Source: an uncultured Candidatus Saccharibacteria bacterium | GTDB taxonomy: Bacteria > Patescibacteria > Saccharimonadia > Saccharimonadales > CAMLKC01 | Direction: 5' to 3' | Length of the DNA: 25,134 nucleotides | Assembly: GCA_946480595.1 (NCBI GenBank) | Contig: CAMLKC010000010.1 | Coordinates: 1-25,134, forward strand | Part shown: positions 1,222 to 23,129 of the stretch, one piece after another | Layout: every line of letters begins with the position of its first letter | Position numbering within the stretch: position 1 is the stretch's first letter | Translations under genes and position numbers: made by a program | The notes under the pieces: model-generated | Databases searched by the model: none | What the model saw: the letters and a program-made list of their open reading frames with translations, nothing else | What the model was told of the DNA's origin: nothing

Positions 1222-1731
1222 TTACACCTCTTTCAGCCAAATATCACCCGTCGCCATGTTGACAGGCTGCACCGTCCCGCCAATCCACAGTACGCGCACG
1301 GCGCCACTGGGACGGGTCGTGTTCTGGTCGACGACATCCACCCACACCAGCCGCGCGTCAAACGCAGTCTGCTGCGCTGTCGAAACAGGTTTGTCTGCGT
1401 CAGCCGTATCATTTACGCTTCCTAAGCCGACATCGGCCGCCGTTACCGCCACATTGGCACTGAGTGCATGACCGTTAACCGTCGTCGTTTTAGGTACCAA
1501 GCCCGAAAGGTCTTGGTCGCCTGTATTCGTACCCGACGTATCGGCAAGCCGCGTAATATCGGCGCTCGTGGTGAATTTATTTGCCGTGGTCGCATCATCG
1601 ATATCGTCCGCGTCGAGTATTACTGCACCGTCCTTTACCGTCCCGTCACCATTATGAGATACCTCAAGAAAGTCGTTTAAGACCGACCCCCAAGTATCTT
1701 CATCTCCTCCTGGTTGCGGCAAGCGTGCCAT
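1222..1731 (-). CDS. Spike-family protein with phage tail-fibre-like repeats
   Basis: This 169-residue protein opens with the block MARLPQPGGD, TWG, LNDFL, HNGDGT that recurs at the start of two other genes in this window (15197 and 21534). Residues about 65-125 match phage tail-fibre sequence: TSGTNTGDQDLSG, then TVNGHALSANV, then VTAADVGLGSVNDT and DADKPVSTAQQ. The C-terminus (VLWIGG...NMATGDIWLKEV) is another segment familiar from tail fibres. There is no signal peptide or transmembrane helix. It is translated directly into the LamG protein downstream. A weak purine-rich SD (AGAGAAAG) precedes the start, with a TATGCT -10 box further upstream. Likely role, inferred: stalk of an adhesive surface fibre. 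Confidence 0.75.
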   Translation of the reverse strand: MARLPQPGGDEDTWGSVLNDFLEVSHNGDGTVKDGAVILDADDIDDATTANKFTTSADITRLADTSGTNTGDQDLSGLVPKTTTVNGHALSANVAVTAADVGLGSVNDTADADKPVSTAQQTAFDARLVWVDVVDQNTTRPSGAVRVLWIGGTVQPVNMATGDIWLKEV

Positions 1732-1814
1732 TTCGTCTATTTCTACTTTCTCTAGTTGTTACTATTAAGCATACCAAACTGCTTATGGTGAGTAAACCGC
1801 CAGGGCCACCCCCG

Positions 1815-1843
1815 TTGCTATTGATGTATAACAGGTGTATAAT
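1815..1843 (+). promoter_or_regulatory. Sigma70-type promoter of the PfkB kinase gene
   Basis: A -35 TTGCTA at 1815-1820 and an extended -10 TGTATAAT (TATAAT at 1838-1843) are separated by exactly 17 nt. The predicted transcript has a ~20-nt leader containing the SD GAAGGAG. Confidence 0.7.
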
Positions 1844-1871
1844 TGCAGGCTGAAAAGTATGAAGGAGCTGT

Positions 1872-2846
1872 ATGCCTAAAGGTATCGAGATTATCGGCTT
1901 TGGCGCTGGTGCGCATGATTACTTTCGACCAATCGGAGAAGTCGATGATGATCACGTTCCCGGAGCTAAAACATCCGTCTGGACCGACCGCGAAGACCGG
2001 CTTCTTCAAGCACTCGCTGAAGCAGGCTGCGAAACGCACGTTGGCGGCAATGTCCTCAATACCCTTACTCGTCTAGCCTGCAGCGACACGCTCAGCTCTA
2101 ATGTCAGGTTCGTCAGTGCGCTCGGCCATGACGGAGCAAGCGACGCGATACGCGGCGAACTCCAGCGGTTTGGCATTCATCAAGAGACCAACACTTCGGC
2201 AGATTACCTCCCTAGCGTCAGTGTCGTTGAGCGCAGGGAGGTCGGCGGTGACCGTATGGTCAAAGGCCGTCCCCGCACACCGCTCGATACTTATGTCAGC
2301 AACGCACAAATCAGTCAAGCCACTGCTGGCGCCGATGTCGTTATTGCCGCCTCATTAAAAAGCATTGAGCTAACAGACAGGGTCTTTGCACAGACCCTCG
2401 AAGACACCTTCGTGTCGTACAACCCGGGCAGCTCAGAGTTCAATGACCCGGAAGCCCTGCGTGCACTCATGCTTGAACACCAACCCGACCTTCTCGCACT
2501 TAACGACGAAGAACTCATCCAGCTTCTTAGCGCCGGTCAAGACGCCGATCCTTCTGAACTTGCTGCCGAGGCAAACCGCTTTGCCAAGAATGTCCTCTGT
2601 ACACTTGGTAAGAATGGCCTCTTGCTTGCAACCGACCACAAAGTAATTCACCGCCCAGCATTTGCGTTGCCCGATCATGCGGTAGTAGATACGCTAGGAG
2701 CGGGCGACCGCGCCCACGCCATCACACTTGAGGGACTCCTGCTTAAGAAGCAACGCCATGATATCCTCCGAGACGTTGCCCATGGCACCGCCTCCGTCAT
2801 TCAGCATGTTGGCGCGCATGGCGACCTGCGCTCATCCCAAAATTAA
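1872..2846 (+). CDS. PfkB-family carbohydrate kinase
   Basis: This 324-residue cytoplasmic protein has the ribokinase/PfkB layout: an N-terminal strand (IEIIGFGAGAHDYF), the substrate-side glycine motif VGGNVLNTLTRLA (about 57-69), the motif LALNDEE (about 208-214), and the C-terminal nucleotide/anion-hole signature DTLGAGD (273-279), whose last Asp is the expected catalytic base. It should phosphorylate a sugar or nucleoside with ATP; the exact substrate cannot be told. The residue after GAGD is Arg rather than the usual Ala/Ser-Phe, a minor oddity. The start is well supported by the SD GAAGGAG seven nt upstream and a strong promoter. A PfkB enzyme would fit a salvage-based metabolism. Single gene, followed by a reverse-strand tRNA. 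Confidence 0.85.
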   Translation: MPKGIEIIGFGAGAHDYFRPIGEVDDDHVPGAKTSVWTDREDRLLQALAEAGCETHVGGNVLNTLTRLACSDTLSSNVRFVSALGHDGASDAIRGELQRFGIHQETNTSADYLPSVSVVERREVGGDRMVKGRPRTPLDTYVSNAQISQATAGADVVIAASLKSIELTDRVFAQTLEDTFVSYNPGSSEFNDPEALRALMLEHQPDLLALNDEELIQLLSAGQDADPSELAAEANRFAKNVLCTLGKNGLLLATDHKVIHRPAFALPDHAVVDTLGAGDRAHAITLEGLLLKKQRHDILRDVAHGTASVIQHVGAHGDLRSSQN

Positions 2847-2905
2847 GGGTGAGGCACATCGCCAATCGCTCTCTCATACCAAAAAATAATCTTAAAATAC
2901 AAAAA

Positions 2906-2982
2906 TGGTACGCCCGAAGGGATTCGAACCCCCGGCCTTTGGTACCGGAAACCAACGCTCTATCCAGCTGAGCTACGGGCGC
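2906..2982 (-). tRNA. tRNA-Arg (anticodon CCG)
   Basis: Complete reverse-strand cloverleaf: acceptor GCGCCCG/CGGGCGT, D-arm GCTC/GAGC, anticodon stem TTGGT/ACCAA with loop TTCCGGT, T-loop TTCGAAT, encoded CCA. Anticodon CCG decodes CGG. No strong hairpin terminator follows; the downstream reverse-strand sequence is only T-rich. Confidence 0.97.
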
Positions 2983-3073
2983 ATATATTCTAAGCCTAAC
3001 AGAAGCGCCGGGTTTCTTCCATATGCCGCTCGTGATACTATAGAATGTATAGCAAATACAGGAGGACCATTCT

Positions 3074-4012
3074 ATGCGAGCAGCACAACTCACTCATTAC
3101 GGCGGCGAAGAAGCGGTAACGGTTGCACCGGACACGCCACAACCTAAAGCCGGTTCGGGTCAGGTACTAGTAAAGATCGAGGCCGCCAGTATCAACGCAA
3201 TCGACTGGAAAATCCGCGAGGGTATGATGCAGCAGATGGCGCCAGTCACCTTTCCTGCGACCATGGGCGGCGATCTTGCTGGAACAATTACAGAAATTGG
3301 TGAAAATGTCGAAGGATTTGAGATTGGCCAAGCGGTTTACGGTCAGACCAATCCTTTTAGCGGCGTGGGTTCGTTTGCTGAGTTTGCACCGATCTCCGCC
3401 ACGAACATTGCAGCCAAACCCCAGACCACCGACTTTATACAAACAGCCGCACTACCACTAACAGCAGTCAGTGCGTACCAGGCGCTTGCCGAAACACTGC
3501 ATCTGCAGGCCGGACAAAAAATCCTCATCCACGGCGGGGCGGGCGGCATCGGCAGCATTGCTATTCAACTGGCAAAGCACCTTGGCGCATACGTTGCCGC
3601 AACGGCCGCAGCCGATGATATTGGCCTTGTAAAAGAAATGGGTGCCGACGAGGCCATTGATTACACGTCGCAGAAGTTCGAGGAGCTGCTAAAAGATTAC
3701 GACGCCGTATTCGACACCGTTGGCGGCGAGACGGCTATCAAGTCATACGCGGTATTGAAGACTGGCGGCCAACTTGTTTCGATGGCCGCCGCCCCAGACG
3801 AAGCCCTGGCAGCAGAACGCGGCATTAGTGCGAGCGCGCAACAAACCCGAGTCACGACCGAGCGCCTCCAAAAAGTCGCCGAACTAGTTGACCAGGGCGT
3901 CCTGAAGCCAGCCGTCGATAGAGTATTCCCGCTCGAGCAAACCGCCGAGGCGCTCGAATACATGCGCCGTGGTCACCACCGCGGAAAAGTCGTCATAAAA
4001 GTGACCGACTAG
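3074..4012 (+). CDS. Zinc-independent medium-chain dehydrogenase (quinone oxidoreductase type)
   Basis: This 312-residue protein starts MRAAQLTHYGG and has the N-terminal GroES-like catalytic domain (GQVLVKIEAASINAIDWKIR at about 29-48, then MGGDLAG). The Rossmann domain carries the nucleotide-binding motif HGGAGGIGSIAIQLAK (about 154-169), whose AxxGxxG-like glycines are typical of the QOR/zeta-crystallin branch. It lacks the cysteine cluster of the structural-zinc loop and the GHE zinc motif, so it is the zinc-less NADPH-dependent type. Likely role: reduction of quinones or reactive enones/aldehydes in the cytoplasm. The SD CAGGAGG sits 8-10 nt before the ATG. murB follows after 17 nt but has its own -10 box, so co-transcription is uncertain. 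Confidence 0.88.
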   Translation: MRAAQLTHYGGEEAVTVAPDTPQPKAGSGQVLVKIEAASINAIDWKIREGMMQQMAPVTFPATMGGDLAGTITEIGENVEGFEIGQAVYGQTNPFSGVGSFAEFAPISATNIAAKPQTTDFIQTAALPLTAVSAYQALAETLHLQAGQKILIHGGAGGIGSIAIQLAKHLGAYVAATAAADDIGLVKEMGADEAIDYTSQKFEELLKDYDAVFDTVGGETAIKSYAVLKTGGQLVSMAAAPDEALAAERGISASAQQTRVTTERLQKVAELVDQGVLKPAVDRVFPLEQTAEALEYMRRGHHRGKVVIKVTD

Positions 4013-4029
4013 CGTATAATCATAACCAA

Positions 4030-5087: not shown

Positions 5088-5594
5088 ATGAAACGTAACG
5101 CTGGCTTTACGCTCGTGGAGCTTCTAATCACGATGGCAATCATGACCATCCTCTTGGTGCTGGCTGTTGTCAATTTACGCTCAAACGAAGCTACCGCGCG
5201 TGACGAAGAGCGCAAAACCGATATCTCGGTAATTGCGCAGCAACTTGAAAACTACTACGAGGCCGGCACCGACACCAACGACCCTGGCGTTTACCCCGCA
5301 ACAACAGATATAGACTCCGAATCAGAGATAAAAGCGATCCTCCCCGATCTCAACCCCAGAGCGCTTCGCGCCCCCGACGTTGCTGATAGCAGCTCCATGA
5401 GCTTTGCTGCCGCCACGACCGCAGCCGCACAGACCCCTGGAGTAAACAGTTATATTTACCAGCCGCTCAAACCCGACGGTACACTCTGCACAAGCTATGG
5501 CTTTGGTGCGGCGAACGAATGCCAGCGGTTCATTCTTTATTACACCCTTGAGACTGTCGCAGGAACACAAACCATAAAGAGTAAACATCAATGA
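5088..5594 (+). CDS. Type IV pilin-like (pseudopilin) protein, 168 aa
   Basis: The N-terminus MKRNAGFTLVELLITMAIM is a class III/type IV prepilin signal: a short positive leader, the G/F cleavage site used by prepilin peptidase, Glu at +5 of the mature protein, and a hydrophobic helix of about 20 residues (LLITMAIMTILLVLAVVNL). The rest is a soluble head with two cysteines (LCTSYGFGAANEC), which may form a disulphide outside the membrane. It should be inserted in the membrane and polymerised into, or initiate, a pilus or pseudopilus. It is the first gene of an operon in which the next ATG overlaps its stop (ATGA). Assembly ATPase, platform protein and peptidase genes are not in this window. 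Confidence 0.88.
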   Translation: MKRNAGFTLVELLITMAIMTILLVLAVVNLRSNEATARDEERKTDISVIAQQLENYYEAGTDTNDPGVYPATTDIDSESEIKAILPDLNPRALRAPDVADSSSMSFAAATTAAAQTPGVNSYIYQPLKPDGTLCTSYGFGAANECQRFILYYTLETVAGTQTIKSKHQ

Positions 5595-5980
5595 GCCGAG
5601 TGCGACTTTATCAGTCGGGATTTTCAGCAGTCGAACTGCTGATCACTCTGTTTATCGCATCTGCGTTCGTAGCCACCGGCTATCAGTTGTATTCCGTTGT
5701 CATCCAAAACGGCGAAAGCGCCCGTGAAAAAGCAAAGGCAAGTAATATTGCCTACGACAACCTGCGCCGCTATTCACCCCAAGCCACCAACCCCTGCAGC
5801 ACCGTCACCGCTTCGCCCACTCCTAGCATCCCATCCGGGAGTAACCTTCCAAACGCATCCGTCGCTGTCGCTATCAGCTGCCCACTCGGAACATCTGCCG
5901 GTATTTCAAAAGTAACCGCCACCGTAACATACGGTAACCCGCAGGAGAGTGTCGTCCATGTCCTTTTCGTCAATGATTAG
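5591..5980 (+). CDS. Minor prepilin-like protein, 129 aa
   Basis: It starts MSRVRLYQSGFSAVELLITLF. The sequence SGFSAVELL is a recognisable prepilin cleavage site (after Gly, mature Phe1, Glu5) followed by a hydrophobic helix. The mature head is short (about 90 residues), with a Pro/Ser/Thr-rich middle (SPTPSIPSGSN) and two Cys (NPCSTV and ISCPLG) that could be disulphide-linked. Its ATG overlaps the upstream stop by 4 nt and its own 3' end overlaps the next gene, so the three are translationally coupled and probably form a minor-pilin tip complex like GspH/I/J or PilV/W/X. The exact subunit identity cannot be assigned by eye. Confidence 0.82.
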   Translation: MSRVRLYQSGFSAVELLITLFIASAFVATGYQLYSVVIQNGESAREKAKASNIAYDNLRRYSPQATNPCSTVTASPTPSIPSGSNLPNASVAVAISCPLGTSAGISKVTATVTYGNPQESVVHVLFVND

Positions 5981-7994
5981 TCACGCCCGTAAGCAAAAGG
6001 GTGCCGGATTTACACTCATCGAGCTGTTAATTATCGCGCCAATCGTCATCATTGCCATCAGCGGCTTCATTGCCCTGATGATTTCTGTCGTGGGTAAAGT
6101 ACTGCTAACCCGCGACCAAGGAGTCCTCACATACTCCACACAAAACGCGCTCAACCGCATAGAAGAAGACGTCCGCCTGAGCGCCAAGTTCCTCTCAACG
6201 ACTGGCGCCCTGCCATCACCACAAGGCAGCAACAGCAACTTTACAGGCACCTCTGCCTTCACTAATACGTCTAATACGCTGATCCTAAACGCCCTTGCAA
6301 CCGACAGCAACCCCCGATCTTCTGACCGCTGGCTGATGTACTACGACAACCAGCCTAATCCCTGTGGCGAAACCGAAACCGCCAACCGCGTCTTTTCTGT
6401 CCGCATCATTTACTTCATTAAAGACAACTCCCTTTGGCGACGAACATACGTCCCCGACTGGAACCTCAACACTAGCAGTCCCGACTCAAACACTATCTGT
6501 ACTTACAGCGAAGATTATTACCCATGGCAAAAGAACAGCTGTAGCCCAGGATATACTGCATCGCGCTGTAAGGCCGAGGACGAGCGTGTCATGGACAACA
6601 TCAGCTCACTTTCAGTGCAGTATTTCAGCAGCCCCACCAGTACGACCGATATAGGAGCTGCAAATGCTGAATCTGCCGCCGCCATCAGTGTCGCTATAAA
6701 TGGCTCCAAAAATACAGCAGGCAACACCTTTACGACCAGTTCCTCGTTGCGCGTCGCAAAGCTCAACAGCATCAACACCGATGCTTCCCCGCTTACTGCG
6801 CCCGTCGTATCGCACTCATTCCCTGCTTCCGATACAGTCTTGTTTAGCTGGGCCGGTATTGCATCGGCGACCAACTATCTCGTTTCCTACAATATTAATG
6901 GAGGTAGCTGGACAAACACGACAGCCAGCGGCGCAACCACCAGCTACGCCGTGACGGCAAACCGGGGCGACACTATATCGTTCAAAGTCGCCGCAACCAA
7001 CGGGACGTATACCTCTAGCTACACCTCAGACGCTGCCACGCTACCGCTTTGGGTTGATGCCGATCTGCAAAGTACTTGGGTTGATTACAGCTCTACGTTC
7101 GCCCACGCCTCTTACACGCGCACTAAAGATAATGTCGTTGTGCTAGAAGGCCTCATCAAGAACGGCCCTGCCACCTGGGACACAACCATATTCACACTGC
7201 CAGTTGGCTACCGCCCGGAGTACCGCCTTATCTTCTATGTCGGCTCATACAACGCAGGAAGCGGCTTCGGTCGAGTCGACGTCCTGACAAACGGCGATGT
7301 CCGGTTTATGCAGGGTACTGCAACCTGGATATCCCTCGATGCCATTAAGTTTCTTGTCGGAGGTTCATGGACTAACCTCACTATGCAAAACAGCTGGATA
7401 AACTACGACGCGGGTTATCCTCCGCTTGCAGTTGCCACCGATGCCAGCGGCCGCACGCATGTCCGCGGATTAGTCAGAAACGGACCTACCACTCCTACTC
7501 ACGTCATCATCGGCGGCCCTATTCCTACTGCAAAACAGCCGCCAAAACAAGGACTATACACGGGTGTTACCTCAGGTACGGGCTTTGCTAGCTTCGATAT
7601 CAAGCCTACCGATGTCGTCACCCGGTCGGCAGTGACTTCATACATATCCACTAACGCTATATACTATCCCACTTCATACAATGGGTGGACCAACCTATCG
7701 CTCCAGAACAGCTGGGTTACCTACAGTAGTACATTCAACACTCCGCAGTACACAAAATCCGCCGACGGTATTGTCACCGTCAAGGGGCTCATAAAGAGCG
7801 GGGCAACGGCCAATGGTACTATTATCGCTAACCTGCCGGTTGGCTACCGCCCAGACAAAAAGCTCATTCTTTCCAGCAATGCTAACTCGCATCACGCCCG
7901 CATTGATGTTGCACCGAACGGTAACATCACCATAGAAGGTACCGGCGACGCAGCGTTTATGAGCCTCGATGAAATTACCTTCCTCGCTCAGTAG
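5958..7994 (+). CDS. Large pilin-like adhesin with FN3-like and phage-tail-type repeats, 678 aa
   Basis: I chose ATG 5958, 10 nt after an AGGAG; an in-frame GTG at 5949 is almost on top of that SD. The N-terminus carries a prepilin signal (KGAGFTLIELL) and one hydrophobic helix. Residues up to about 250 form a pilin-like head resembling PilW/GspJ, with several Cys. Residues about 275-362 look like a fibronectin type III domain (VLFSWAGIASATNYLVSYNI, then YAVTANRGDTISFKVAA). From about 369 to the end are three ~105-residue repeats, each starting LQ/MQ-(S/N)-(T/S)W-(V/I)-Y and ending near SLD-I-F; copies 1 and 3 share PVGYRP, a phrase familiar from phage tail and collagen-like fibre C-termini. 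Likely a pilus-tip adhesin. Pilins of this size and design are unusual. Confidence 0.85.
   Translation: MSFSSMISHARKQKGAGFTLIELLIIAPIVIIAISGFIALMISVVGKVLLTRDQGVLTYSTQNALNRIEEDVRLSAKFLSTTGALPSPQGSNSNFTGTSAFTNTSNTLILNALATDSNPRSSDRWLMYYDNQPNPCGETETANRVFSVRIIYFIKDNSLWRRTYVPDWNLNTSSPDSNTICTYSEDYYPWQKNSCSPGYTASRCKAEDERVMDNISSLSVQYFSSPTSTTDIGAANAESAAAISVAINGSKNTAGNTFTTSSSLRVAKLNSINTDASPLTAPVVSHSFPASDTVLFSWAGIASATNYLVSYNINGGSWTNTTASGATTSYAVTANRGDTISFKVAATNGTYTSSYTSDAATLPLWVDADLQSTWVDYSSTFAHASYTRTKDNVVVLEGLIKNGPATWDTTIFTLPVGYRPEYRLIFYVGSYNAGSGFGRVDVLTNGDVRFMQGTATWISLDAIKFLVGGSWTNLTMQNSWINYDAGYPPLAVATDASGRTHVRGLVRNGPTTPTHVIIGGPIPTAKQPPKQGLYTGVTSGTGFASFDIKPTDVVTRSAVTSYISTNAIYYPTSYNGWTNLSLQNSWVTYSSTFNTPQYTKSADGIVTVKGLIKSGATANGTIIANLPVGYRPDKKLILSSNANSHHARIDVAPNGNITIEGTGDAAFMSLDEITFLAQ
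7064..7991 (+). repeat. Three tandem ~105-codon tail-fibre-type domain repeats within the pilin gene
   Basis: Copy 1 starts near 7064 (LQSTWVDYSSTF), copy 2 near 7378 (MQNSWINYDAGY) and copy 3 near 7691 (LQNSWVTYSSTF). Copies 1 and 3 are closest and share GLIK-G, (T/N)LPVGYRP and R(V/I)DV--NG(D/N). Copy 2 is more diverged and lacks GYRP. The repeats are diverged at the DNA level, so they are old rather than a recent tandem duplication. Confidence 0.8.
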
Positions 7995-8015
7995 TACAAC
8001 CGATGAAGAAAACGC

Positions 8016-8044
8016 TTGCGCTTATGTGGCGACAATAGTATCAT
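8016..8044 (+). promoter_or_regulatory. Promoter of the major pilin gene
   Basis: -35 TTGCGC (8016-8021) and -10 TATCAT (8039-8044) with an exact 17-nt spacer. The resulting leader (about 33 nt) contains the SD AGGGGG. A second AT-rich TATA-containing stretch (8051-8064) could be an alternative -10. Confidence 0.6.
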
Positions 8045-8083
8045 ACGGATATAAAGTTTATATAATTAGGGGGCAAATATAGA

Positions 8084-8527
8084 ATGACCTTTAGCAAATT
8101 AAAAACCATGAAAAAGGATCGCGGTTTCACCATCGTTGAGCTCTTGATCGTGATTGTGATCATCGCCATCTTGGCTGCCATCGTGATCGTTGCCTACAAC
8201 GGTATTACTAACCGTGCAAAGACCTCTAAAGCTCTTTCTGCAGCACAAGCCGTTCAGCAAAAAGCCGGAGCATACAACGCCGAAGTTGGATACTATCCTG
8301 ACGCAGGCGCTGACCTTACTGGTGCAGCAAGTAGCCTAAGCTATAACCTAACAGGTGTTACATTTGCAGGTGCAGACATAGTCGCTGCTCCAGCAGACGA
8401 AAATACTGTTTACATAACAACCTGCCCAGCCTCTTCTACGGCATCAGCGGTTAAGGGTATAAATATTAAATACTGGGACTATAACACTCCTGGTGCAGTA
8501 ACGATTACTTCTGGCGTCTGTCCATAG
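8084..8527 (+). CDS. Type IV major pilin-like protein, 147 aa
   Basis: The N-terminus (MKKDRGFTIVELLIVIVIIAILAAIVIVAYNG) is a textbook type IV prepilin: leader ending in Gly, mature Phe1, Glu5, and a long hydrophobic helix with the IVIIAILAAI core. The head contains a Cys pair (ITTCPAS and the C-terminal SGVCP), matching the D-loop disulphide of type IVa pilins. Size, a strong SD (AGGGGG) and separate promoter and terminator suggest high, independent expression, as expected for the major subunit. An internal ATG at codon 9 (MKKDRGF) is an alternative start, but the SD favours the first. The minor pilins lie directly upstream. In Saccharibacteria, type IV pili are known to take part in motility and host attachment. 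Confidence 0.88.
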   Translation: MTFSKLKTMKKDRGFTIVELLIVIVIIAILAAIVIVAYNGITNRAKTSKALSAAQAVQQKAGAYNAEVGYYPDAGADLTGAASSLSYNLTGVTFAGADIVAAPADENTVYITTCPASSTASAVKGINIKYWDYNTPGAVTITSGVCP

Positions 8528-9998: not shown

Positions 9999-10025
9999 TT
10001 TACATTATATCGTATGTGATATAAT
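9999..10025 (+). promoter_or_regulatory. Promoter of HTH-murA
   Basis: TATAAT at 10020-10025 with a -35-like TTTACA at 9999-10004 (15-nt spacer). The -10 ends 7 nt before the chosen ATG at 10033, so the transcript should start at or one base before the codon. An additional TATAAT at 9959-9964 may be a second upstream promoter. Confidence 0.6.
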
Positions 10026-10026
10026 G
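10003..10026 (+). promoter_or_regulatory. Perfect 9-bp palindrome over the murA -10 box, candidate operator
   Basis: CATTATATC and GATATAATG are exact inverted repeats separated by the 6 nt GTATGT. The right arm contains the -10 hexamer of the murA promoter. Protein binding here would block RNA polymerase. The gene it controls encodes its own XRE-type HTH domain, so autorepression is the natural inference. Confidence 0.6.
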
Positions 10027-10032
10027 ATTGGC

Positions 10033-11568
10033 ATGAGCAATGATGATTACAAGATAAAAATCGGCACACTTATTCAGGAAGCGCGCACTAATCGCGGCTT
10101 TACACAGGCGCAATTAGCGAAAGAACTCGGCACTAGCCAGTCAGCGATTAACCGTATTGAAAAGGGCGGTCAAAATATCAGCCTTGAGATGATCGCCCGC
10201 ATTAGTGACGTACTTTCAAGCAATATCGTCACCCTTAACCACACCGGTAAAATCAATTTCCGTATTCATGGCGGTAAAGAACTCTCTGGTAGCATTGAGG
10301 TAAAAACCAGCAAGAACGCGGCTGTTGGTTTGCTATGTGCCGCCCTGCTTAACAAAGGTAAGACTACGCTTCGCCGCGTGGCCCGCATTGAAGAAGTTAA
10401 CCGTATTATTGAGGTGCTCCAGAGCATTGGTGTCAAAACCCGTTGGATCGGCGATAACGGTGATCTTGAAATCATCCCACCAAAACGTCTTGAGCTCGAA
10501 AAAATGGACATTGCCGCTGCCAAACGAACCCGCACCGTCATTATGTTTCTCGGGCCGCTCCTGCATCAGTACGACGACTTTAGATTACCGTTTGCCGGCG
10601 GCTGCAACCTTGGTACTCGCACCGTCGAGCCGCATCTTGTCGGGCTCGCCCCTTTTGGTATGGACGTCGAAGCCAAACCTAACACCGATTATTATCACGC
10701 GACCGTCAAAGAAACGAAGGTCGGTAAGACTATTCTCCTCACCGAACGCGGCGACACAGTTACCGAAAACGTCATCATGGCCGCGGCTCTGTATGAAGGA
10801 ACGGTCACTATTCGAAACGCCAGCCCAAACTACATGGTGCAAGATGTTTGTTTCTTTCTGAAAAAGCTCGGCGTCGACATTAAAGGTATCGGCACGACCA
10901 CACTTACTATCACGGGCAAGAAAAAGATCAACCAGGACATTGAATATTTCCCAAGCGAAGATCCTATTGAAGCCATGAGCCTGATCGCTGCCGGTATCGT
11001 GACCGATTCTGAAATCACCATTACCCGTGCGCCGATTGAATTTATCGAGCTGGAGCTGGCCATTCTCACCGGCATGGGTCTGCAGTATGACATCACCGAA
11101 GAATATAAAGCGCGTAACGGCCACACCCGCCTGGTAGATATCTCTCTCAAGCATTCCAAACTGCACGCCCCCAAAGACAAGCTGCACAGCATGCCGTTTC
11201 CCGGCGTTAATATGGACAACCTCCCCTTCCTCGGCCTTATTGCTACCGTCGCGCACGGCCGCACGCTCGTCCACGACTGGAGCTACGAAAACCGCGCCAT
11301 TTACTTTACCGAGCTCACCAAACTTAACGCCAGCATCGAGCTGGTTGACCCGCACCGCGTATATATTACCGGACCTACCAAGTGGAAAGCCGCTGATGTC
11401 GTAGCGCCGCCTGCGCTTCGCCCTTCGGTAGTCATCCTTCTTGCTATGCTAGCAACGCCCGGTATATCTGTTTTGCGTGATATTTATTCGATTAACCGCG
11501 GGTACGAAGATCTTGCGGCCCGCCTCAACACGCTTGGCGCCGAAATAGAGACCATCCGCGAAATTTAG
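10033..11568 (+). CDS. murA: MurA with an N-terminal XRE-type HTH domain
   Basis: UDP-GlcNAc 1-carboxyvinyltransferase catalyses the first committed step of peptidoglycan synthesis. The protein is 511 aa from ATG 10033; an upstream in-frame ATG at 10024 overlaps the -10 box and is unlikely. Residues about 7-62 are a Cro/XRE helix-turn-helix (GFTQAQLAKELGTSQSAINRIEKG). MurA spans about 76-511, with KTSKNAAV (Lys94-Asn95, the KN substrate pair), AGGCNLGTR with the phosphoenolpyruvate-binding Cys191 (fosfomycin target), and the C-terminal INRGYEDL. The loop FPGVNMDN replaces FPTDMQAQ of E. coli, moving or losing the usual Asp305, so catalysis there may differ. Normal MurA is about 420 aa; the extra length is the HTH. 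A palindrome over the promoter suggests self-regulation. Confidence 0.95.
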   Translation: MSNDDYKIKIGTLIQEARTNRGFTQAQLAKELGTSQSAINRIEKGGQNISLEMIARISDVLSSNIVTLNHTGKINFRIHGGKELSGSIEVKTSKNAAVGLLCAALLNKGKTTLRRVARIEEVNRIIEVLQSIGVKTRWIGDNGDLEIIPPKRLELEKMDIAAAKRTRTVIMFLGPLLHQYDDFRLPFAGGCNLGTRTVEPHLVGLAPFGMDVEAKPNTDYYHATVKETKVGKTILLTERGDTVTENVIMAAALYEGTVTIRNASPNYMVQDVCFFLKKLGVDIKGIGTTTLTITGKKKINQDIEYFPSEDPIEAMSLIAAGIVTDSEITITRAPIEFIELELAILTGMGLQYDITEEYKARNGHTRLVDISLKHSKLHAPKDKLHSMPFPGVNMDNLPFLGLIATVAHGRTLVHDWSYENRAIYFTELTKLNASIELVDPHRVYITGPTKWKAADVVAPPALRPSVVILLAMLATPGISVLRDIYSINRGYEDLAARLNTLGAEIETIREI

Positions 11569-13984: not shown

Positions 13985-14593
13985 ATGAACTTAGAAGATT
14001 ACTGCAAAACCGTGTTTCAGGATGCTATTCCCGAAACGCACAACGCGCCTTGGGATATCATCCAGAATCTTGAATCAACCGTATGGGAGTTGCTGGATAA
14101 CCTGCCAGAAGAGTACGACATATCCGGCGGCGTCGCCATTCATGCAACCGCGATCGTCGACCCCAGCACTATCATCAAAGAGCCGGCAATCATCGGCAAA
14201 GATTGTTTCATCGGGCCGCACGGGCTTATCCGCGGCGGGGTCATTATGGCAGAAAAGTCCTCCATTGGCGCCAACTGCGAGGTAAAACGCACCATTCTTG
14301 GCGCCAAGAGCCACCTTGGTCACTTTAATTTCATTGGCGATTCGATCGTCGGCACGAGCGTCAACGTCGAAGCCGGAGCAGTCATCGCCAATCACTTCAA
14401 TGAGCGACGGCCAAAAGACCAGAACGTTCGCGTCCGCATAGACAACCAAATCATCGAAACCGGCACGACACGTTTTGGTTCGGTTATTGGCGACCACGCC
14501 AAAATTGGCGCCAACGCCGTTTTGACACCCGGGACCATTCTAAAGCCCGCGACTATTGTTCCCCGGCTTGGTCTTATCGATCAAATGGCGTAG
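13985..14593 (+). CDS. Hexapeptide-repeat (left-handed beta-helix) transferase
   Basis: Residues about 55-200 of this 202-residue protein show repeating [I/V]-G-x-x motifs (ATAIVDPSTIIKEPAIIGKD, then CFIGPHGLIRGGVIMAE, SSIGANCEVKRTILGAKS, FNFIGDSIVGTSVNVEAGAVI, SVIGDHAKIGANAVLTPGTIL), the left-handed beta-helix of acyl/acetyltransferases. It resembles the C-terminal part of GlmU-like and sugar-phosphate nucleotidyltransferase-linked proteins; the segment ANHFNE is reminiscent of their acetyl-CoA/UDP-sugar region. The N-terminal ~50 residues are a helical cap, with no nucleotidyltransferase domain. I chose ATG 13985, because a -10 TATCAT (13972-13977) ends 7 nt before it; the longer frame from 13907 would be read across that promoter. 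Likely cell-wall or surface-sugar acetylation. Confidence 0.82.
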   Translation: MNLEDYCKTVFQDAIPETHNAPWDIIQNLESTVWELLDNLPEEYDISGGVAIHATAIVDPSTIIKEPAIIGKDCFIGPHGLIRGGVIMAEKSSIGANCEVKRTILGAKSHLGHFNFIGDSIVGTSVNVEAGAVIANHFNERRPKDQNVRVRIDNQIIETGTTRFGSVIGDHAKIGANAVLTPGTILKPATIVPRLGLIDQMA

Positions 14594-14992
14594 CTAACTG
14601 TAAGGATTGTATTTCCGCGTCGGCGGCTCTGAAAAGTTACGCTTTGGCACCTGCACTGGCCTAGCGGCCGACTTACCTGGTAAGTTGCTCGCACTCGAGA
14701 CTCCCCCAGCGTTAAAACTTTGACGGGTGAGTCGGTGTTTGTGCTTGTTATGGCTCTGGTCGACTCCGCTATCGATCCGCTTGTTAATCTCGTCGCGCAG
14801 GTGTTCGCCACTGCTTGCCACAAAAGATTCGCTGTACCGCCGCACCATCTGACGATTCTTGTCGATCTGAGAGCGTTGGTTGAACGACTGCGCGTTGGTC
14901 GATCCCATCGACTCGCCGCTCGCAGCATCGGCAAAAGTATGCGAGTGGAATGGTTTGTTGGCGTCATTGCCCGAAAACTTATTTATCGTCAT
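14594..14992 (-). CDS. Hypothetical protein, 132 aa, low complexity
   Basis: No family recognised. It starts MTINKFSGNDANKPF, is rich in Ser, Asn, Arg and Gln, has one predicted helix (about 43-75, IDKNRQMVRRYSESFV...LRDEINKRI), and ends in a basic, Pro-containing disordered tail (PPTRKYNPYS). There is no membrane helix or signal. The stop abuts the convergent hexapeptide gene with no gap. A reverse-strand TATAAT (15006-15011) 13 nt before the ATG would give a leader of only about 6 nt, without SD. Its head-to-head arrangement with the tRNA-Gly promoter supports a real gene. Possibly a nucleic-acid-associated or scaffold protein, but that is a guess. Confidence 0.65.
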   Translation of the reverse strand: MTINKFSGNDANKPFHSHTFADAASGESMGSTNAQSFNQRSQIDKNRQMVRRYSESFVASSGEHLRDEINKRIDSGVDQSHNKHKHRLTRQSFNAGGVSSASNLPGKSAARPVQVPKRNFSEPPTRKYNPYS

Positions 14993-15005
14993 GGTTATGG
15001 TTTAT

Positions 15006-15030
15006 ATTATACGCCAAAACCTGTTATAAT
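15006..15030. promoter_or_regulatory. Divergent -10 boxes for the 132-aa gene and tRNA-Gly
   Basis: TATAAT on the reverse strand at 15006-15011 serves the leftward gene. TATAAT on the forward strand at 15025-15030 lies 10 nt before tRNA-Gly. The two promoters overlap, so they may compete. Confidence 0.6.
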
Positions 15031-15040
15031 TTGAAAACGC

Positions 15041-15115
15041 GCGGGCGTCGTATAATGGCTAATATACGTGCCTTCCAAGCATGTGATGCGAGTTCGATTC
15101 TCGCCGCCCGCACCA
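15041..15115 (+). tRNA. tRNA-Gly (anticodon TCC)
   Basis: Cloverleaf with acceptor GCGGGCG/CGCCCGC, anticodon stem CGTGC/GCATG with loop CTTCCAA, T-arm GCGAG/CTCGC with TTCGATT, and encoded CCA. Anticodon TCC decodes GGA (and GGG by wobble). Its 3' CACCA is also the outer left arm of the palindromic terminator that follows. Confidence 0.97.
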
Positions 15116-15158
15116 AAGTAAAAAGACATCTAAATTCGGATGTCTTTTTACTTTGGTG
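15111..15158 (+). terminator. 48-nt palindromic terminator that includes the tRNA-Gly CCA end
   Basis: Perfect 20-bp inverted repeat: left arm 15111-15130 (CACCAAAGT then AAAAAGACATC), 8-nt loop, right arm 15139-15158. The core AGACATC/GATGTCT plus T5 is a normal terminator; the outer 9 bp of each arm duplicate, in inverted orientation, the tRNA 3' end and the next bases. Pairing can extend outward by a G-T and a C-G pair. Confidence 0.85.
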
Positions 15159-15196
15159 TGCATTATACTAACCATAAGAATAATAGAAGGAATACC

Positions 15197-16360
15197 GTGG
15201 CACGATTACCGCAACCCGGCAGTGACGAAGGAACATGGGGCGACGTCCTCAATGACTTTTTGTCACAATCACACGACACCTCGGGCAACCTTAAAAGCGG
15301 AGTTGTCGGCGCTACTCAGCTTGCTAACAACTCAGTTTCTACAGCCAAACTCCAAGACGGTGCGATCACCAGCGCCAAGATTGCCGATGGGGCTATTAGC
15401 AGCACCAAAATAACCGTTAACCCAAGTAGTGAAGCGGGGATACGATCCCTGCTTGTGTTATATTCTCCGCCTAACATCATTAACACCAAATACAGCGACG
15501 ACTACGCCGCAGGGATTCTTTGCCGCTATGACGATGTCGTTCTTGGCAGTGGGCTGGAGGATTCTGGCAACGCTTATCACGCGAGCACTCAGGCAATCAT
15601 TCAAAAAGTCGCCAACATCTCTCCATCGACTGTCACTTGGGGATATATCGACGCCGGCGTTACCACCGGCAACCTCCCGCTCGCTACCATTCAATCGAAA
15701 ATCGACGCATGGATTGCAATGGGTGTTGGCGGAATATTCCTAGATACGTTCGGATACGACTACCACACCCCGCGCTCCCGGCAGAACAGCATTCTTAGCT
15801 ATGTCCACAGCAAAGGCGTCGGCGCGATAATAAACGTCTGGAACCCCGACGACGCGCTGAGTTCTACCGTCGATGCTACATACAACCCTTCTGGTGCCGC
15901 TACCGTTGCCGGAGCCAATGACGTGCTACTGCTAGAGTCATGGGTATGCAATAGCGACAGCTACGCCTCGCCTTACTACGCCACGATGTCCGACATCAAA
16001 ACACGGGGCGACAAAGCCGTCGCGTATCGTACCAGTCTGGGACTCCGAATCTTCAGCCTCAATATCATGCTCCACACCGGTACAGATGAGGCAACACTCG
16101 CAGAGTACCGCGGCGTCAGCGAAGGGCTCGCCCGTGCTTGGCGACTCGATGGTGCTGGTCTGGCCTGCTCTAACTACGCATCTACAGGCGCCGACCTTGC
16201 TGTGGCTGAGCCGCGCTTTTCTCCTTACCGCAATATTCCGCTGCGAACGGCTGCACCTTATATTCTCAATGGATTCTGGACCGAAGTACAAGCGCCCGAC
16301 CTTGGAATCACCATTACTTACGATGCAGGCACCTCAACCTATAGCTGGCAGCAACTCTAA
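15197..16360 (+). CDS. Spike-family protein with spherulin-4/GH114-like TIM barrel
   Basis: Start chosen at GTG 15197 with SD GAAGG, because the protein then begins MARLPQPGSD, TWG, LNDFL exactly like the other two spike-family proteins (387 aa). Residues about 42-73 hold a repeated stalk-like motif (QLANNSVSTAKLQDGAITSA, then KIADGAISSTKI) common in phage fibres and trimeric stalks. Residues about 80-340 resemble a TIM-barrel glycosidase of the spherulation-specific family 4 / endo-alpha-1,4-polygalactosaminidase (GH114/GH135) kind: TWGYIDAG, then GVGGIFLDTFGYDY with candidate acidic Asp183, then AIINVWNPDD and DVLLLESW. A C-terminal strand region (about 350-387) follows. No signal peptide. 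Likely a surface glycan-binding or -cleaving protein. Confidence 0.72.
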   Translation: MARLPQPGSDEGTWGDVLNDFLSQSHDTSGNLKSGVVGATQLANNSVSTAKLQDGAITSAKIADGAISSTKITVNPSSEAGIRSLLVLYSPPNIINTKYSDDYAAGILCRYDDVVLGSGLEDSGNAYHASTQAIIQKVANISPSTVTWGYIDAGVTTGNLPLATIQSKIDAWIAMGVGGIFLDTFGYDYHTPRSRQNSILSYVHSKGVGAIINVWNPDDALSSTVDATYNPSGAATVAGANDVLLLESWVCNSDSYASPYYATMSDIKTRGDKAVAYRTSLGLRIFSLNIMLHTGTDEATLAEYRGVSEGLARAWRLDGAGLACSNYASTGADLAVAEPRFSPYRNIPLRTAAPYILNGFWTEVQAPDLGITITYDAGTSTYSWQQL

Positions 16361-16398
16361 AACTACCTAAAACATAGGCATCTTGATATACTTAACTC

Positions 16399-16779
16399 AT
16401 GCAAAGTAAACTCATGAAACGTGTCGTTGGCACCGAATACCTCGTCGCAGCTATTTTAGTCGCTGTCTTTTATATCACCGTCGGTAATTTTGCCTGGTAC
16501 TGGCTGCCTATTCTTTTTATCGTCTTTGATCTTAGCGCTGTCGGATATGTCATAAACCCGCGCATCGGTGCCCTTGTGTACAACCTCGGTCATAGTCTCA
16601 TTGGACCCACTCTACTGGTTGCGCTATATATCGCCACTACCAACCAAGGCGTACTGTTCGTTGCACTTATCTGGCTATTTCACATTTTTGTTGATCGTGC
16701 GCTTGGCTACGGCCTCAAGCATACCAAAGGGTTTGAGCACACGCACCTTGGCCCAATTGGCAAAGCTAAAAAGAAGTAG
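16399..16779 (+). CDS. DUF4260-family membrane protein
   Basis: This 126-residue inner-membrane protein has about four hydrophobic segments (about 14-30, 32-52, 57-78 and 85-97), which then lead into the signature DRALGYGLKHTKGFEHTHLG (about 99-118), characteristic of DUF4260, and a Lys-rich tail (GKAKKK). The function of the family is unknown. -10 TATACT (16387-16392) ends 6 nt before the ATG and no SD exists, so the mRNA is likely leaderless. Confidence 0.85.
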   Translation: MQSKLMKRVVGTEYLVAAILVAVFYITVGNFAWYWLPILFIVFDLSAVGYVINPRIGALVYNLGHSLIGPTLLVALYIATTNQGVLFVALIWLFHIFVDRALGYGLKHTKGFEHTHLGPIGKAKKK

Positions 16780-20198: not shown

Positions 20199-20474
20199 AT
20201 GTGCCGCAATATTAAAACTCTATTCAACTTTGACCCACCAGCCACAGACGAAGAAATTCGGGCCGCTTCACTACAGTTCGTACGCAAGCTGACTGGTTTT
20301 CACCACCCCTCCCAGGTAAACGAGGCCGCTTTTAACCGTGCCGTCGATGAAGTGTCGGTCGTCGCACGTAGCTTGTTTGAGGGCTTGGTAACTAATGCAG
20401 AGCCTCACGACCGCGAGGAAGAAGCCGCCAAAGCACACGCACGTGCCGTAAAACGCTTTGGTATCAAGCCCTAG
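20199..20474 (+). CDS. DUF2277-family protein, 91 aa
   Basis: The sequence MCRNIKTLFNFDPPATDEEI, then AASLQFVRKLTGF and the C-terminal DREEEAAKAHARAVKRFG, is the conserved DUF2277 pattern (MCRNI start is diagnostic). The function is unknown; the family is widespread in bacteria. The SD AAGGAG (20188-20193) is 5 nt before ATG 20199; the in-frame GTG at 20193 overlaps the SD and is not the start. Confidence 0.92.
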   Translation: MCRNIKTLFNFDPPATDEEIRAASLQFVRKLTGFHHPSQVNEAAFNRAVDEVSVVARSLFEGLVTNAEPHDREEEAAKAHARAVKRFGIKP

Positions 20475-20477
20475 CCC

Positions 20478-20506
20478 TTGGCTTATGTAAGCATTATTGG
20501 TATTAT
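20478..20506 (+). promoter_or_regulatory. Promoter of the anchored secreted protein
   Basis: -35 TTGGCT (20478-20483), exact 17-nt spacer, -10 TATTAT (20501-20506). The -10 ends 7 nt before ATG 20514, so this fixes the start codon and predicts a leaderless mRNA. Confidence 0.65.
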
Positions 20507-20513
20507 TTTCATA

Positions 20514-20915
20514 ATGATATTGAAAGCAAAAAAGAGCCGTAAAAAGCTAATCATCGGTGTATCACTTGCCGTTGTCGTAAGTGCGGGGCTCGCTTTTTAT
20601 ATGCTTGGCGGCGTTGAAAAGGTGCGAGCGGCCTTCCAGCCCAAGGCTCAGAACCATTCAATCGAATTAAAGGGCAAGCTGGTTTGCCTGCCTCGGCAAG
20701 ATGGCGGTGAAACATCGGCGCTTTCGTGTGCCTTCGGCATGCAGGCGGAGGATGGCAAGTACTACGGCCTCAGCGGGTCTAAAGATACCGCTCTCTCAGA
20801 TGCCGCCGGCACCAGCAAGAGTATCGAACTTTCAGGTGAGCTGCGCTCACCTACCGACGCCACTTACAAGATGGAAGGCGTCATAGCCGTCGACAGCTTC
20901 AAGTTAAGCGATTAA
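20514..20915 (+). CDS. Membrane-anchored extracytoplasmic protein, 133 aa
   Basis: From ATG 20514 (MILKAKKSRKKLIIGVSLAV): a Lys-rich start, one hydrophobic helix (about 12-31), then a hydrophilic domain outside the membrane. The domain (about 45-133) is strand-rich (IELKGKLVCLPRQ, ALSCAFGMQAEDGKYYGLSG, KSIELSGELRSPT, YKMEGVIAVDSFKLSD) and reads like a small beta-barrel/OB-like fold; two Cys could pair. The longer frame beginning 20478 would cover the promoter and is rejected. The Nudix gene follows after 1 nt, so the two form a transcription unit. Family not recognised. Confidence 0.7.
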   Translation: MILKAKKSRKKLIIGVSLAVVVSAGLAFYMLGGVEKVRAAFQPKAQNHSIELKGKLVCLPRQDGGETSALSCAFGMQAEDGKYYGLSGSKDTALSDAAGTSKSIELSGELRSPTDATYKMEGVIAVDSFKLSD

Positions 20916-20916
20916 C

Positions 20917-21492
20917 ATGCTTGTTCCAATCGACATCGTCACAAAGTATAACCGTCCGACGGGTGAAAAAAGCAACCCGGAAGACGCAACAAACCAGGGA
21001 CTGTGGCACCGCGGCGCCCACGTCTTTCTTTTAACCCCTAGTGGCCGCTCTCTCGTGCAAAAAAGAAGTGCTAACGCGATACAACGCCCTTCTCTTATCG
21101 ATATAGGGGTTGGCGGATTCGTTGACAGCGGAGAACTGCCTGAAGAGGCGGCAGTCCGTGAGGTATACGAAGAAACCGGTCTGAAGATCACCACCGGTGA
21201 TCTTATCTTCATGGGCGTTACCAGGCATAATCACCGCTGGAAATTTGGCAAACAGCAAAAGATCACCCGCGCTATTATTTACAATTACGCCGCTCGCCTG
21301 CCGCATGAGCACAACCAAGTCATTCCAGAAGATGGCGAAGTCGCGTGGATAGGTTTTATTCCGCCAAAAAGTATTCTTTGGCTGATTAAAAACGGTTCGT
21401 CACGCCGCATTGGCCGGCTTTCACCTCTGTATGGCTATTACCGTAAGATGGTGCGTCAGGCATATCGCATCCTAGACGAACGCTTCTACTAA
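20917..21492 (+). CDS. Nudix hydrolase (IDI/YfcD-like)
   Basis: The 191-residue protein contains a perfect Nudix box, G-x5-E-x7-REVYEETGL (about residues 67-89), which binds Mg2+. The sequence before it (WHRGAHVFLLTPSG, LVQKRSANAIQRPSLIDIGVGG) resembles isopentenyl-diphosphate isomerase-like/YfcD Nudix enzymes. It should hydrolyse a nucleoside or prenyl diphosphate-type substrate in the cytoplasm; the substrate is not known. It lies 1 nt after the preceding gene, so it is translated from the same mRNA. No SD of its own is evident. Confidence 0.92.
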   Translation: MLVPIDIVTKYNRPTGEKSNPEDATNQGLWHRGAHVFLLTPSGRSLVQKRSANAIQRPSLIDIGVGGFVDSGELPEEAAVREVYEETGLKITTGDLIFMGVTRHNHRWKFGKQQKITRAIIYNYAARLPHEHNQVIPEDGEVAWIGFIPPKSILWLIKNGSSRRIGRLSPLYGYYRKMVRQAYRILDERFY

Positions 21493-21533
21493 ACATATTC
21501 TCAGCATAAGCAATTTGCCGTATACTAAGTGCA

Positions 21534-23129
21534 ATGGCGCGATTACCTATACCTGGCGACGACACCGGTACCTGGGGCACTATCCTCAATGACTTTCTGG
21601 ACGTCGAACACAATACCGACGGCACTCTTCGCCGCGGAGGTGACATTGATGCCGCGCTTTCAACGGCAAGTTCGGCCCAAACCGCCGCAGCAGGTAAAAT
21701 TGACAAATCTACCGCCACCACAAAGGGCGACCTTCTTGTAAGCAGCGGCGCATCAACTATTAGCCGGCTTGGTGCGGGTGCTGACGGCCAATACCTTGCC
21801 GCCGATTCGTCCAAGACAGTGGGTGTTGCATGGAAAAATACGCGCTGGCTTCTTGCCTCCGATTTTGGTGCGACGTTTGACGGTACGACCGATGATTCCA
21901 GCGCATTGCAAGCAGCCATCGACGAAGCAATCTCTTCAGGAAAACCCCTGGCTTTAGACGCCGGAACCGCAATTATTGGGACGACATTATCTATTAATGA
22001 CAGCTTGACGTTAATAGGCGCTGGCCGAGAAGCCACCACGCTCAAAGCAGCGAACGGCCTTAACGATTACGTCATCACATTTACTGGCGGCGCGGCAGGA
22101 GTCGGCATAATTGGTGCTTTGTTAAGCGACTTTACCATCGATGGCCACAACTCAGCTCAGACGGCGGGTGGAGGTATCCTTGGTAACGGCGCCGTGCAGT
22201 GCAGTTTTGAAAGGCTTCACCTCACTAGCTGTTATGACTGGGGTCTAAAACTCGGACCAATGACCGGCGGAGCGTTTGGACACCACAACCGGGTCACTAA
22301 CTGTCTTTTTGACCAAGGTGGTGGCAGTGCTGGTTTTGGTGGTGGCGCGTGGCTTACCTCCAGTGACGAAAACTGGTTTACGGGTACTGACTTCGAGTAC
22401 TTAGGCGGCAGTGCCGTGCCAGTCGGCTCGACGCCAGTCATGCTTTACGACCAAGCAGGTTTACAGCATATTATTGGCTGCAACTTTGTACAGGGTAGCA
22501 ATAACTGTATAGGCATTCGGGTGCAAAACGCGTTCGACTCAAAAATTATCGGATCAACATTCGATGGCCTGGCCGGAGATTGCATCTTTCTGGTCGCTAA
22601 TAAATGTGTCGTTTCAAGCAACCTTATCACTGGCCCCGGTGACGCCGGGACGCAACCTGCATCCGGCATCCACCTGGAGTTCAACACGCATTTTAATGTC
22701 ATCTCGGGCAACTCCCTTGAAACCTCGAACACTGTTGCAGGCCGCGTTCGCAGCCTTATCCGCGAAGAATCGACTGGCGGAGCGGGCGACAACCTTATCG
22801 AAGGCAACAGCGTCACTTGGGGGACATACGGCCCCACTGTCGGTCTGATCGAATCTGCCGGTGCGAACACTATCGTTCGCAACAATATCGGCTGGAAAAC
22901 CGAAAACGGTGGAACCGCCACAGTAGCAAATGGTACCACAAGCATTGCAGTGCCGCATGGCGTCGACACAGCACCCAACCTGGGCAATATTGCCGTCACA
23001 CCAACCAACAGTCTTGGAAATGCAGCAAAGTTTTGGATCAGCGGTGTCACTAATACGCAGTTTACTATTAATGTCGATGTCGATCCTGGCGCGACAACCG
23101 CGACCTTTTCCTGGCTCGTTAGGCTGTAG
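21534..23129 (+). CDS. Spike-family protein with right-handed beta-helix (tailspike-like)
   Basis: This 531-residue protein begins with the shared block MARLPIPGDD, TWG, LNDFL, HNTDGTL. Residues about 55-105 are a phage-type linker (STATTKGDLLVSSGASTISR, then LGAGADGQYLAADSS). Residues about 104-440 open like the pectate-lyase superfamily (FGATFDGTTDDSSALQAAID) and continue as a parallel beta-helix with repeated N-x-[VI]-x-[GN]-N turns. The C-terminal ~75 residues (TIAVPHG-like, TPTN, GNAAKFWISG, TFTINV-like, FSWLVRL) match a common tail-fibre end domain. No signal peptide. -10 TATACT (21521-21526) ends 7 nt before ATG. The 3' end overlaps the convergent Clp gene by 11 nt. Likely a glycan-binding or -depolymerising surface spike. 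Confidence 0.8.
   Translation: MARLPIPGDDTGTWGTILNDFLDVEHNTDGTLRRGGDIDAALSTASSAQTAAAGKIDKSTATTKGDLLVSSGASTISRLGAGADGQYLAADSSKTVGVAWKNTRWLLASDFGATFDGTTDDSSALQAAIDEAISSGKPLALDAGTAIIGTTLSINDSLTLIGAGREATTLKAANGLNDYVITFTGGAAGVGIIGALLSDFTIDGHNSAQTAGGGILGNGAVQCSFERLHLTSCYDWGLKLGPMTGGAFGHHNRVTNCLFDQGGGSAGFGGGAWLTSSDENWFTGTDFEYLGGSAVPVGSTPVMLYDQAGLQHIIGCNFVQGSNNCIGIRVQNAFDSKIIGSTFDGLAGDCIFLVANKCVVSSNLITGPGDAGTQPASGIHLEFNTHFNVISGNSLETSNTVAGRVRSLIREESTGGAGDNLIEGNSVTWGTYGPTVGLIESAGANTIVRNNIGWKTENGGTATVANGTTSIAVPHGVDTAPNLGNIAVTPTNSLGNAAKFWISGVTNTQFTINVDVDPGATTATFSWLVRL

Follow-up and report, generated by a model that had tools for sequence, protein, structure and literature searches.

What does a shared N-terminal block do on spike-like proteins that carry no evident export signal? 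In a 25,134-nucleotide stretch from an uncultured Candidatus Saccharibacteria bacterium (GenBank assembly GCA_946480595.1, contig CAMLKC010000010.1, positions 1 to 25,134; hereafter the window), a sequence-only reading had picked out three genes, here A, B and C (Table 1), in which a common N-terminal block of about 30 residues is joined to unrelated C-terminal parts, and had suggested a docking or export role for the block. The three open reading frames (ORFs) are present as described, the common part, hereafter the head, was taken as 35 residues (identity to C over residues 1-35 is 66% for A and 63% for B), and none of the three products shows a signal peptide when read by eye. We consider it likely, from sequence comparison, that the head and a short tyrosine-glycine motif, the YG tag, form the plug and socket of a phage fibre mount, reused in Saccharibacteria for export by the twin-arginine translocation (Tat) system and for surface display of folded spikes.

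The head is no chance resemblance. All 65 candidates of a database search with the head of gene B score at E <= 0.01, with the head at the protein start or, in one case, 5 residues in, and their precomputed annotations include GDSL, pectate-lyase-like, beta-helix, collagen and other domains. Heads occur, in 1-20 copies each, in 78 of the 294 sampled genomes of the class to which the Candidatus Saccharibacteria genome G001 belongs (here termed Saccharimonadia), one genome of 1.2 Mb holding 20 with open frames. A scan of one genome per species over 84,980 species gave 153 stretches, of which 131 were confirmed and the best 80 (78 loci) kept; these kept loci belong mostly to Saccharibacteria, with a few from Mycobacterium/Mycolicibacterium, Gordonia, Levyibacteriota and WWE3, and a few more from Woesearchaeota, Chloroflexi, Verrucomicrobiales and unplaced records. 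Clustering of 92 genomic tails, taken from residue 91 onward and some of them ended by contig ends, yielded 70 clusters including 56 singletons, and the profile searches across genomes returned what the sequence-only reading had named as support, namely many proteins with the same head and varied tails.

The genomic partner of the head is the Tat system. Clustering of the neighbours of the 78 head loci returns tatC as the commonest (12 loci, WWE3 and Levyibacteriota records included; Pfam-confirmed in 4/4 tested). Across the 294 class genomes, 79 of which have TatC, head and TatC occur together in 75, the head alone in 3, TatC alone in 4 and neither in 212 (Fisher 6e-61). On a ClpC tree built for 60 of these genomes, the head needs 18 changes and TatC 19, and over 12 supported independent TatC contrasts the head changes in the same direction 10.1 times on average and never in the opposite one (median p 0.002). 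The same holds at phylum level (286 genomes), where TatC is present in 14/14 head genomes as against 24/286 overall, 10 genomes having TatC alone. In an excerpt of PMC9166423, TatA and TatC are reported from Microgenomatia, Paceibacteria and Saccharimonadia, and an excerpt of PMC6031116 states that, of the Saccharibacteria analysed there, T. rhizospherense alone has a complete twin-arginine system (tatBC), with four TAT-motif genes, two of them of unknown function. Among 146 immediate neighbours of heads (at least 110 residues), TatC is again the commonest Pfam family (7), a tail fibre PHROG matched 2, and capsid, portal and terminase are absent from the 25 families listed for each library, out of 118 for Pfam and 97 for PHROG; by this listing the block is not confined to prophages with full structural modules. 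Another family, phrog_36238 (unknown function), equals the count of TatC with 7 of the 146.

A small protein accompanies TatC and head. The 79 genomes have 80 tatC matches; reading each with its flanks, we found in 64/80 regions a protein mostly of 60-100 residues, hereafter the carrier, with the consensus LLxKEMDRKEFLKHVGIG...GYGSSAYGG, which combines an R-K-x-F-L Tat motif with a C-terminal GYGSSAYGG-type tag. A YG/FG/YS-type motif lies within 25 residues of the C-terminus in 64 of the 66 carriers of these regions, an R-x-x-F Tat-type motif was picked up by a first-match regular expression in 49, and in 38 the start lies no more than 200 bp downstream of tatC, on the same strand. Carrier and TatC coincide in 75 of the 294 genomes, TatC is alone in 4, the carrier alone in none, and both are missing in 215; over the same 12 TatC contrasts the carrier changes in the same direction 11.2 times and never in the opposite one (p 0.001), and it is present in G307, G328, G498 and G558, the four additional head genomes of the phylum-wide sample. 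Counting all fetched loci, some regions having been fetched twice, a head starts within 150 bp downstream of the carrier in 26/85 cases. The order in a Levyibacteriota locus (L034) is tatA-tatC-carrier-head, the carrier stop overlapping the head start. Contigs of Mycobacterium sp. PO1 and Mycolicibacterium agri (57-67% and 59-64% G+C in 2-kb steps) also place the carrier immediately ahead of the head, with a YG-bearing ORF beside the pair on the opposite strand and no tatC found by profile within the stretch read; Gordonia aichiensis has a head and no carrier. On chromosome G002, 40 kb of it excepted, a loose scan gave 51 Tat-like candidates, 25 after removal of overlapped ORFs, among which the carrier alone fits [STDN]R[RKQ]xF[LIM]. 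The carrier has no match in 50,697 phage records, and one head and one carrier searched against 72,556 plasmid records as a sign of plasmid spread gave none either.

Head and tag vary together. Among 24 distinct adjacent carrier-head pairs (at most 200 bp apart), 8 combine an F-type tag with an EHY head, 13 another tag with a canonical head and 3 are mixed (Fisher 5e-4, with subtypes defined after being seen); two of the 13 other-tag carriers, L029 and L138, have an incomplete tag. Locus L097 has one pair of each kind, the second 225 bp apart and beyond the limit. At 6185-8126 and 14316-16510 it has carriers of two types, with the tags GYGGSAYGG and GFGSSKFGV and each followed by the matching head type, and L139 has carriers with GYGASAYGG and GFGTRKFGV at 2513-2722 and 7574-7810; it is as if two insulated export lines stood side by side in both loci.

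The YG tag recurs with a period of five residues. In the 80 tatC regions the pattern YGxxxY[GNDSQ]xxxY has 27 matches, where shuffles lead one to expect 0.8. Upstream in 39/80 regions, divergently in 35, lies a gene near tatA for a YG-tagged short protein with a C-terminal membrane segment. An xTG motif is present in 28 of the 39, the LxNTG-like motif standing before the membrane segment and a basic tail. A sortase gene was detected with a three-sequence profile near 12/80 tatC regions (PF04203 in 3/3 tested), and we rejected sortase as an obligate partner on that count.

Head and tag are also found in phages, where they can lie close together. Six of 50,697 GenBank phage records contain the head, five of them Streptomyces phages, as do 19 IMG/VR loci, BRock itself being one. 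In loci L008, L017 and L006 the head gene directly follows a gene with tape-measure matches (the top match in L006 being an endolysin family), in L022 one gene intervenes, and in L007 portal and major head genes precede the head, with a virion structural gene following it. A virion structural module is the setting of these viral relatives; it is not that of the window genes nor, by the families listed, of the 146 genomic neighbours. The period-5 pattern has 13 matches in 21 viral head loci against 0.2 from shuffles, in 12 of the 21. The tag stands close to one terminus, N or C, of the product of a gene adjoining the head in L006, L012, L017, L020, L021 and L022, always on the strand of the head among the matches listed, and lies within 110 bp of the head gene in 6/19 IMG/VR loci, the looser L017 motif having been added to the regular expression by hand. 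Tail diversity, phage homologues in structural clusters and the YG tag as candidate partner together support the earlier suggestion that these proteins would dock through their conserved end, as phage fibres do. In GiJojo, a loose regular expression gave seven matches in all (locus L365), among them YG motifs in gp80 (tail sheath), GYGDGSYGGGTYGG, and gp92 (minor tail protein), GYGVDIYGTVLYG, candidate mounting sites for the headed fibre gp34.

Searching in reverse, from the tag to the head, gives the same association. Of 119 viral contigs picked by YGxGxYGxGxY alone, 51 show a head by the broad WGxxLN pattern no more than 3 kb away on the strand of the tag and none shows one on the opposite strand, as against 0/107 control contigs (the first 120 contigs listed in each scan); by family the figures are 9/33 versus 0/46 (p 2e-4). 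A natural fusion of head and tag was also looked for and no convincing one found, the 7 ORFs with both letter patterns looking coincidental. A pair of a different kind occurs in Woesearchaeota (L090), in a record that may be misbinned: a signal-peptide-like stretch ending in ALA immediately precedes the head, ARLPIVGEDAGQWGSILNDFL, and in the adjacent gene a second signal-like stretch comes before a tag, QQAYGKGSYGVSGYS, with cleavage sites read by eye. This arrangement argues for joint action of head and tag outside the cell, and against the head being an export signal in its own right.

From heads, tags, gene order, co-occurrence and co-variation, we infer the following route. In tailed phages, a fibre would be mounted through its N-terminal head, which would bind YGxGxYGxGxY on a virion protein from a nearby gene. 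In Saccharibacteria, the head-tag pair would be reused: the spike would fold, and probably trimerise, in the cytoplasm, its head would bind the C-terminal GYGSSxYGG tag of the small R-K-x-F-L carrier, and TatAC would move the folded spike-carrier complex across the membrane as in hitchhiker export. Outside, the spike may stay on the carrier or pass to the YG tag of the LxNTG-like surface protein whose gene lies near tatA. A single carrier could serve a whole range of interchangeable spikes, so that the epibiont would gain a set of surface adhesins and glycan-active enzymes, which may bind or cut host glycans. The earlier view of the block as an export module is retained in this indirect form, through TatC and a separate tagged carrier; in the head itself no Tat or Sec features can be seen by eye.

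Several observations weigh against this route. The co-variation test leaves common descent in, the head has no credible relative in the PDB (one chance-level match), and carriers have mostly R-K rather than R-R. No carrier match was found in 16/80 tatC regions, no head in 38/80 (within the fetched stretch), no YG membrane protein in 41/80 and, by the three-sequence profile, no sortase in 68/80. Individual genomes depart from the pattern: G156, G259 and G296 have heads without TatC and carrier, G058 and G087 have head and TatC and no carrier at E 1e-6, G211 and G233 have TatC without head or carrier, G071 has TatC and carrier without a head, and G204 has TatC without a head and Tat-like signals on other ORFs (427 and 429 residues). 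On the phage side, the L017 tag in the 13-match count lies inside a tape-measure ORF, and 7/19 IMG/VR head loci have no tag; three of these end at the head and two are BRock-type excerpts, L005 and L018 having no such excuse. In the reverse test, the broad WGxxLN expression was written after the GiJojo matches had been seen and many tagged contigs are related, and with the earlier-built hidden Markov model the count by family is 7/33 versus 0/46 at a lax E of 10 and 2/33 at E 1.

The family name of the carrier is a further difficulty and the starting point of the rival that survives best. NCBIfam NF038009 'TatB_1' covers the carrier (L133 at 138.8 bits, cut-off 100; L142, L037, L049 and L134 below cut-off at 48-70 bits, E 8e-13 to 2e-19), a name by which the carrier may be part of the translocase, and among these five carriers the NCBIfam Tat signal is over its cut-off only in L049 (18.3 versus 16.7 bits), being below it or unlisted in the other four. 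The mini-protein could then be a TatB-like subunit, the spikes just one client of Tat among several, and the YG tag unrelated to the head, a reading with which the Tat-like signals of the headless G204 agree. We regard it as unlikely, given that a like tag recurs in virion proteins of phages close to head genes, and in the archaeal partner too, that tag and head subtypes co-vary, and that the two mycobacterial contigs place the carrier directly before the head with no tatC within the stretches read. Other Tat clients in G204 may explain its TatC without heads. Tat signals that match only the first part of the carrier model occur in G204 (C2:495217, C2:9913), G106 (C3:110048) and G243 (C72:43355), in ORFs of 337-434 residues that are perhaps other Tat clients.

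A second rival, to which we give still less credence, would have TatC read the head directly as a non-canonical Tat signal, the tagged mini-protein being a separate Tat component. The almost perfect co-occurrence of head and TatC would fit, as would the position of the head at or a few residues from the N-terminus in the listed proteins, L090 excepted. Yet the aligned heads have no twin arginine and, to the eye, no hydrophobic stretch, the signal-like stretch of the archaeal L090 being an exception and a Sec-like one placed ahead of the head; heads lie in phage structural clusters; and head subtype tracks the tag subtype of the adjacent carrier. Least credible of all is an origin as plain prophage remnants or morons, in which integrated phages left tail fibres behind, for although the genes have homologues among phage structural genes and their tails match tail-fibre and tailspike families, the 146 neighbours lack capsid, portal and terminase among the families listed, the 1.2 Mb genome keeps its 20 copies open, gains or losses of the head have repeatedly been shared with TatC and carrier, to which it is locked, and the carrier is unmatched in the phage records.

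The head-bearing genes of the window itself are collected in Table 1.

Table 1. Head-bearing genes of the window and the gene adjoining gene A (E values from a head profile whose alignment included these three heads)
Feature	Position	Strand	Description
Gene A	1222..1731	-	169 aa; head, tail-fibre repeats, short C-terminal segment, end GDIWLKEV
Head of gene A	1627..1731	-	MARLPQPGGDEDTWGSVLNDFLEVSHNGDGTVKDG; head profile E 2.5e-21
Gene B	15197..16360	+	387 aa, starting with GTG; head, then tail-fibre repeats and a tail resembling an alpha/beta barrel
Head of gene B	15197..15301	+	(M)ARLPQPGSDEGTWGDVLNDFLSQSHDTSGNLKSG; head profile E 4.3e-21
Gene C	21534..23129	+	531 aa; head, linker, right-handed beta-helix tailspike-like body
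Head of gene C	21534..21638	+	MARLPIPGDDTGTWGTILNDFLDVEHNTDGTLRRG; head profile E 7.2e-21
Partner gene	487..1221	-	LamG/pentraxin-like protein; directly behind gene A, start codon adjoining the stop of A

The tails named by the sequence-only reading are supported to differing degrees. Gene A, which it took for tail-fibre repeats beside a LamG protein, matches PHROG tail fibre/structural families over residues 34-152; the partner product has no Pfam match of its own at E <= 0.1, PF13385 is precomputed in 8/21 of its other homologues, and the structures matched by its model (m8bda8d94023d; predicted local distance difference test, pLDDT, 66) are of the pentraxin and LamG kinds, at E 4e-7 to 1e-5. 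Gene C was indeed recognisable as a right-handed beta-helix: it matches PF12708 at E 1e-9 and tailspike structures in the PDB at E 2e-4, and its residues 1-453, head included, are 42.5% identical to GiJojo gp34, a match spanning 85% of the gene. For gene B, a PHROG tail fibre match covers residues 32-73, and the reading of the rest as a spherulin-4/GH114-like barrel stands as a suggestion: no Pfam match exceeds the cut-off, and a model of low confidence (pLDDT 41, a hint only) matches TIM barrels, the PelA hydrolase included. The YG tag was not found within the window, where three spikes are present. The nearest row to the window ClpC, G265 (86%), has head, TatC and carrier, and its clade of 7 rows consists of five with head and TatC, one with the head only and the window; we predict that the tatAC genes and carrier of this organism lie elsewhere in its genome.

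In BRock (L004/L002), GiJojo (L001) and L014 the head gene lies 82-85 bp behind a tRNA-Lys gene, which in BRock and GiJojo belongs to a large tRNA array. A tRNA link had seemed apparent in the window and in BRock-type phages; tRNA-linked insertion was rejected on finding 8/105 genomic heads within 300 bp of a tRNA versus 9.3% for random placements. A G+C content of 52.3% seems low for a Streptomyces phage. That value is given for the BRock genome in an excerpt of PMC7453282.

Elsewhere in the window, the ORF at 5949-7994 (+) encodes a prepilin-like protein of 681 residues with an N-terminal GFTLIELLII, whose residues from about 558 to 680 have phage PHROG matches, a minor tail protein among them; it is possibly a pilin-tip adhesin with phage-type repeats. 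More prepilin-like ORFs lie at 5088-5594, 5591-5980 and 8084-8527, and one ORF at 10024-11568 (+) reads as an XRE-type helix-turn-helix domain followed by a MurA-like protein.

Mycobacteria are relatives of known Saccharibacteria hosts. We lean, by a small margin of belief, towards a wider version of the proposal: the WGxxLN head and YGxGxYG tag may be a general, undescribed fibre mount of many tailed phages, taken over as an export code in which any headed folded protein would ride a universal tagged Tat carrier, letting the host-dependent Saccharibacteria export and display many exchangeable spikes of phage type, and the cassette may have moved to mycobacteria and, with Sec-like signals, to an archaeon. 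The proposed route by which these ultrasmall epibionts would deliver adhesins and enzymes to their surface consists of TatAC, a tagged carrier, a tagged membrane protein and headed spikes, and offers a reason why the sampled class genomes with TatC have retained it. If true, phage biology would gain a sequence-readable rule pairing a fibre with its virion protein, and biotechnology a small tag-head pair for the export of folded proteins.

The combination of parts and the tag-head code did not appear among the listed results of searches of open-licence PubMed Central papers. In Tat hitchhiker (piggyback) export, for example of hydrogenase subunits, a signal-less protein leaves the cell folded and bound to a signal-bearing partner; here, too, the proposed client would be folded and signal-less on a putatively signal-bearing partner, whereas no enzyme is evident in the carrier, a generic mini-protein, and the clients are a multi-gene family sharing a head. 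NF038009 TatB_1 ('twin-arginine translocation system-associated protein') is probably the carrier family itself; the description shown provides the name only and mentions neither the YG tag, the spike-head link nor the mycobacterial presence. The YG membrane protein may resemble sortase-anchored (LPXTG-type) proteins in its shortness, LxNTG-like motif, membrane segment and basic tail, with a sortase sometimes near, but many YG proteins seem, on an uncounted reading, to lack an N-terminal signal peptide or globular domain and to be mainly YG tag. Phage fibres and tailspikes such as GiJojo gp34, annotated as hypothetical, share the constant N-terminus and swappable tail, whereas the window genes lie on a bacterial chromosome among ordinary genes and are linked to Tat. 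Each principle has its precedent, in hitchhiker export, fibre docking and sortase display.

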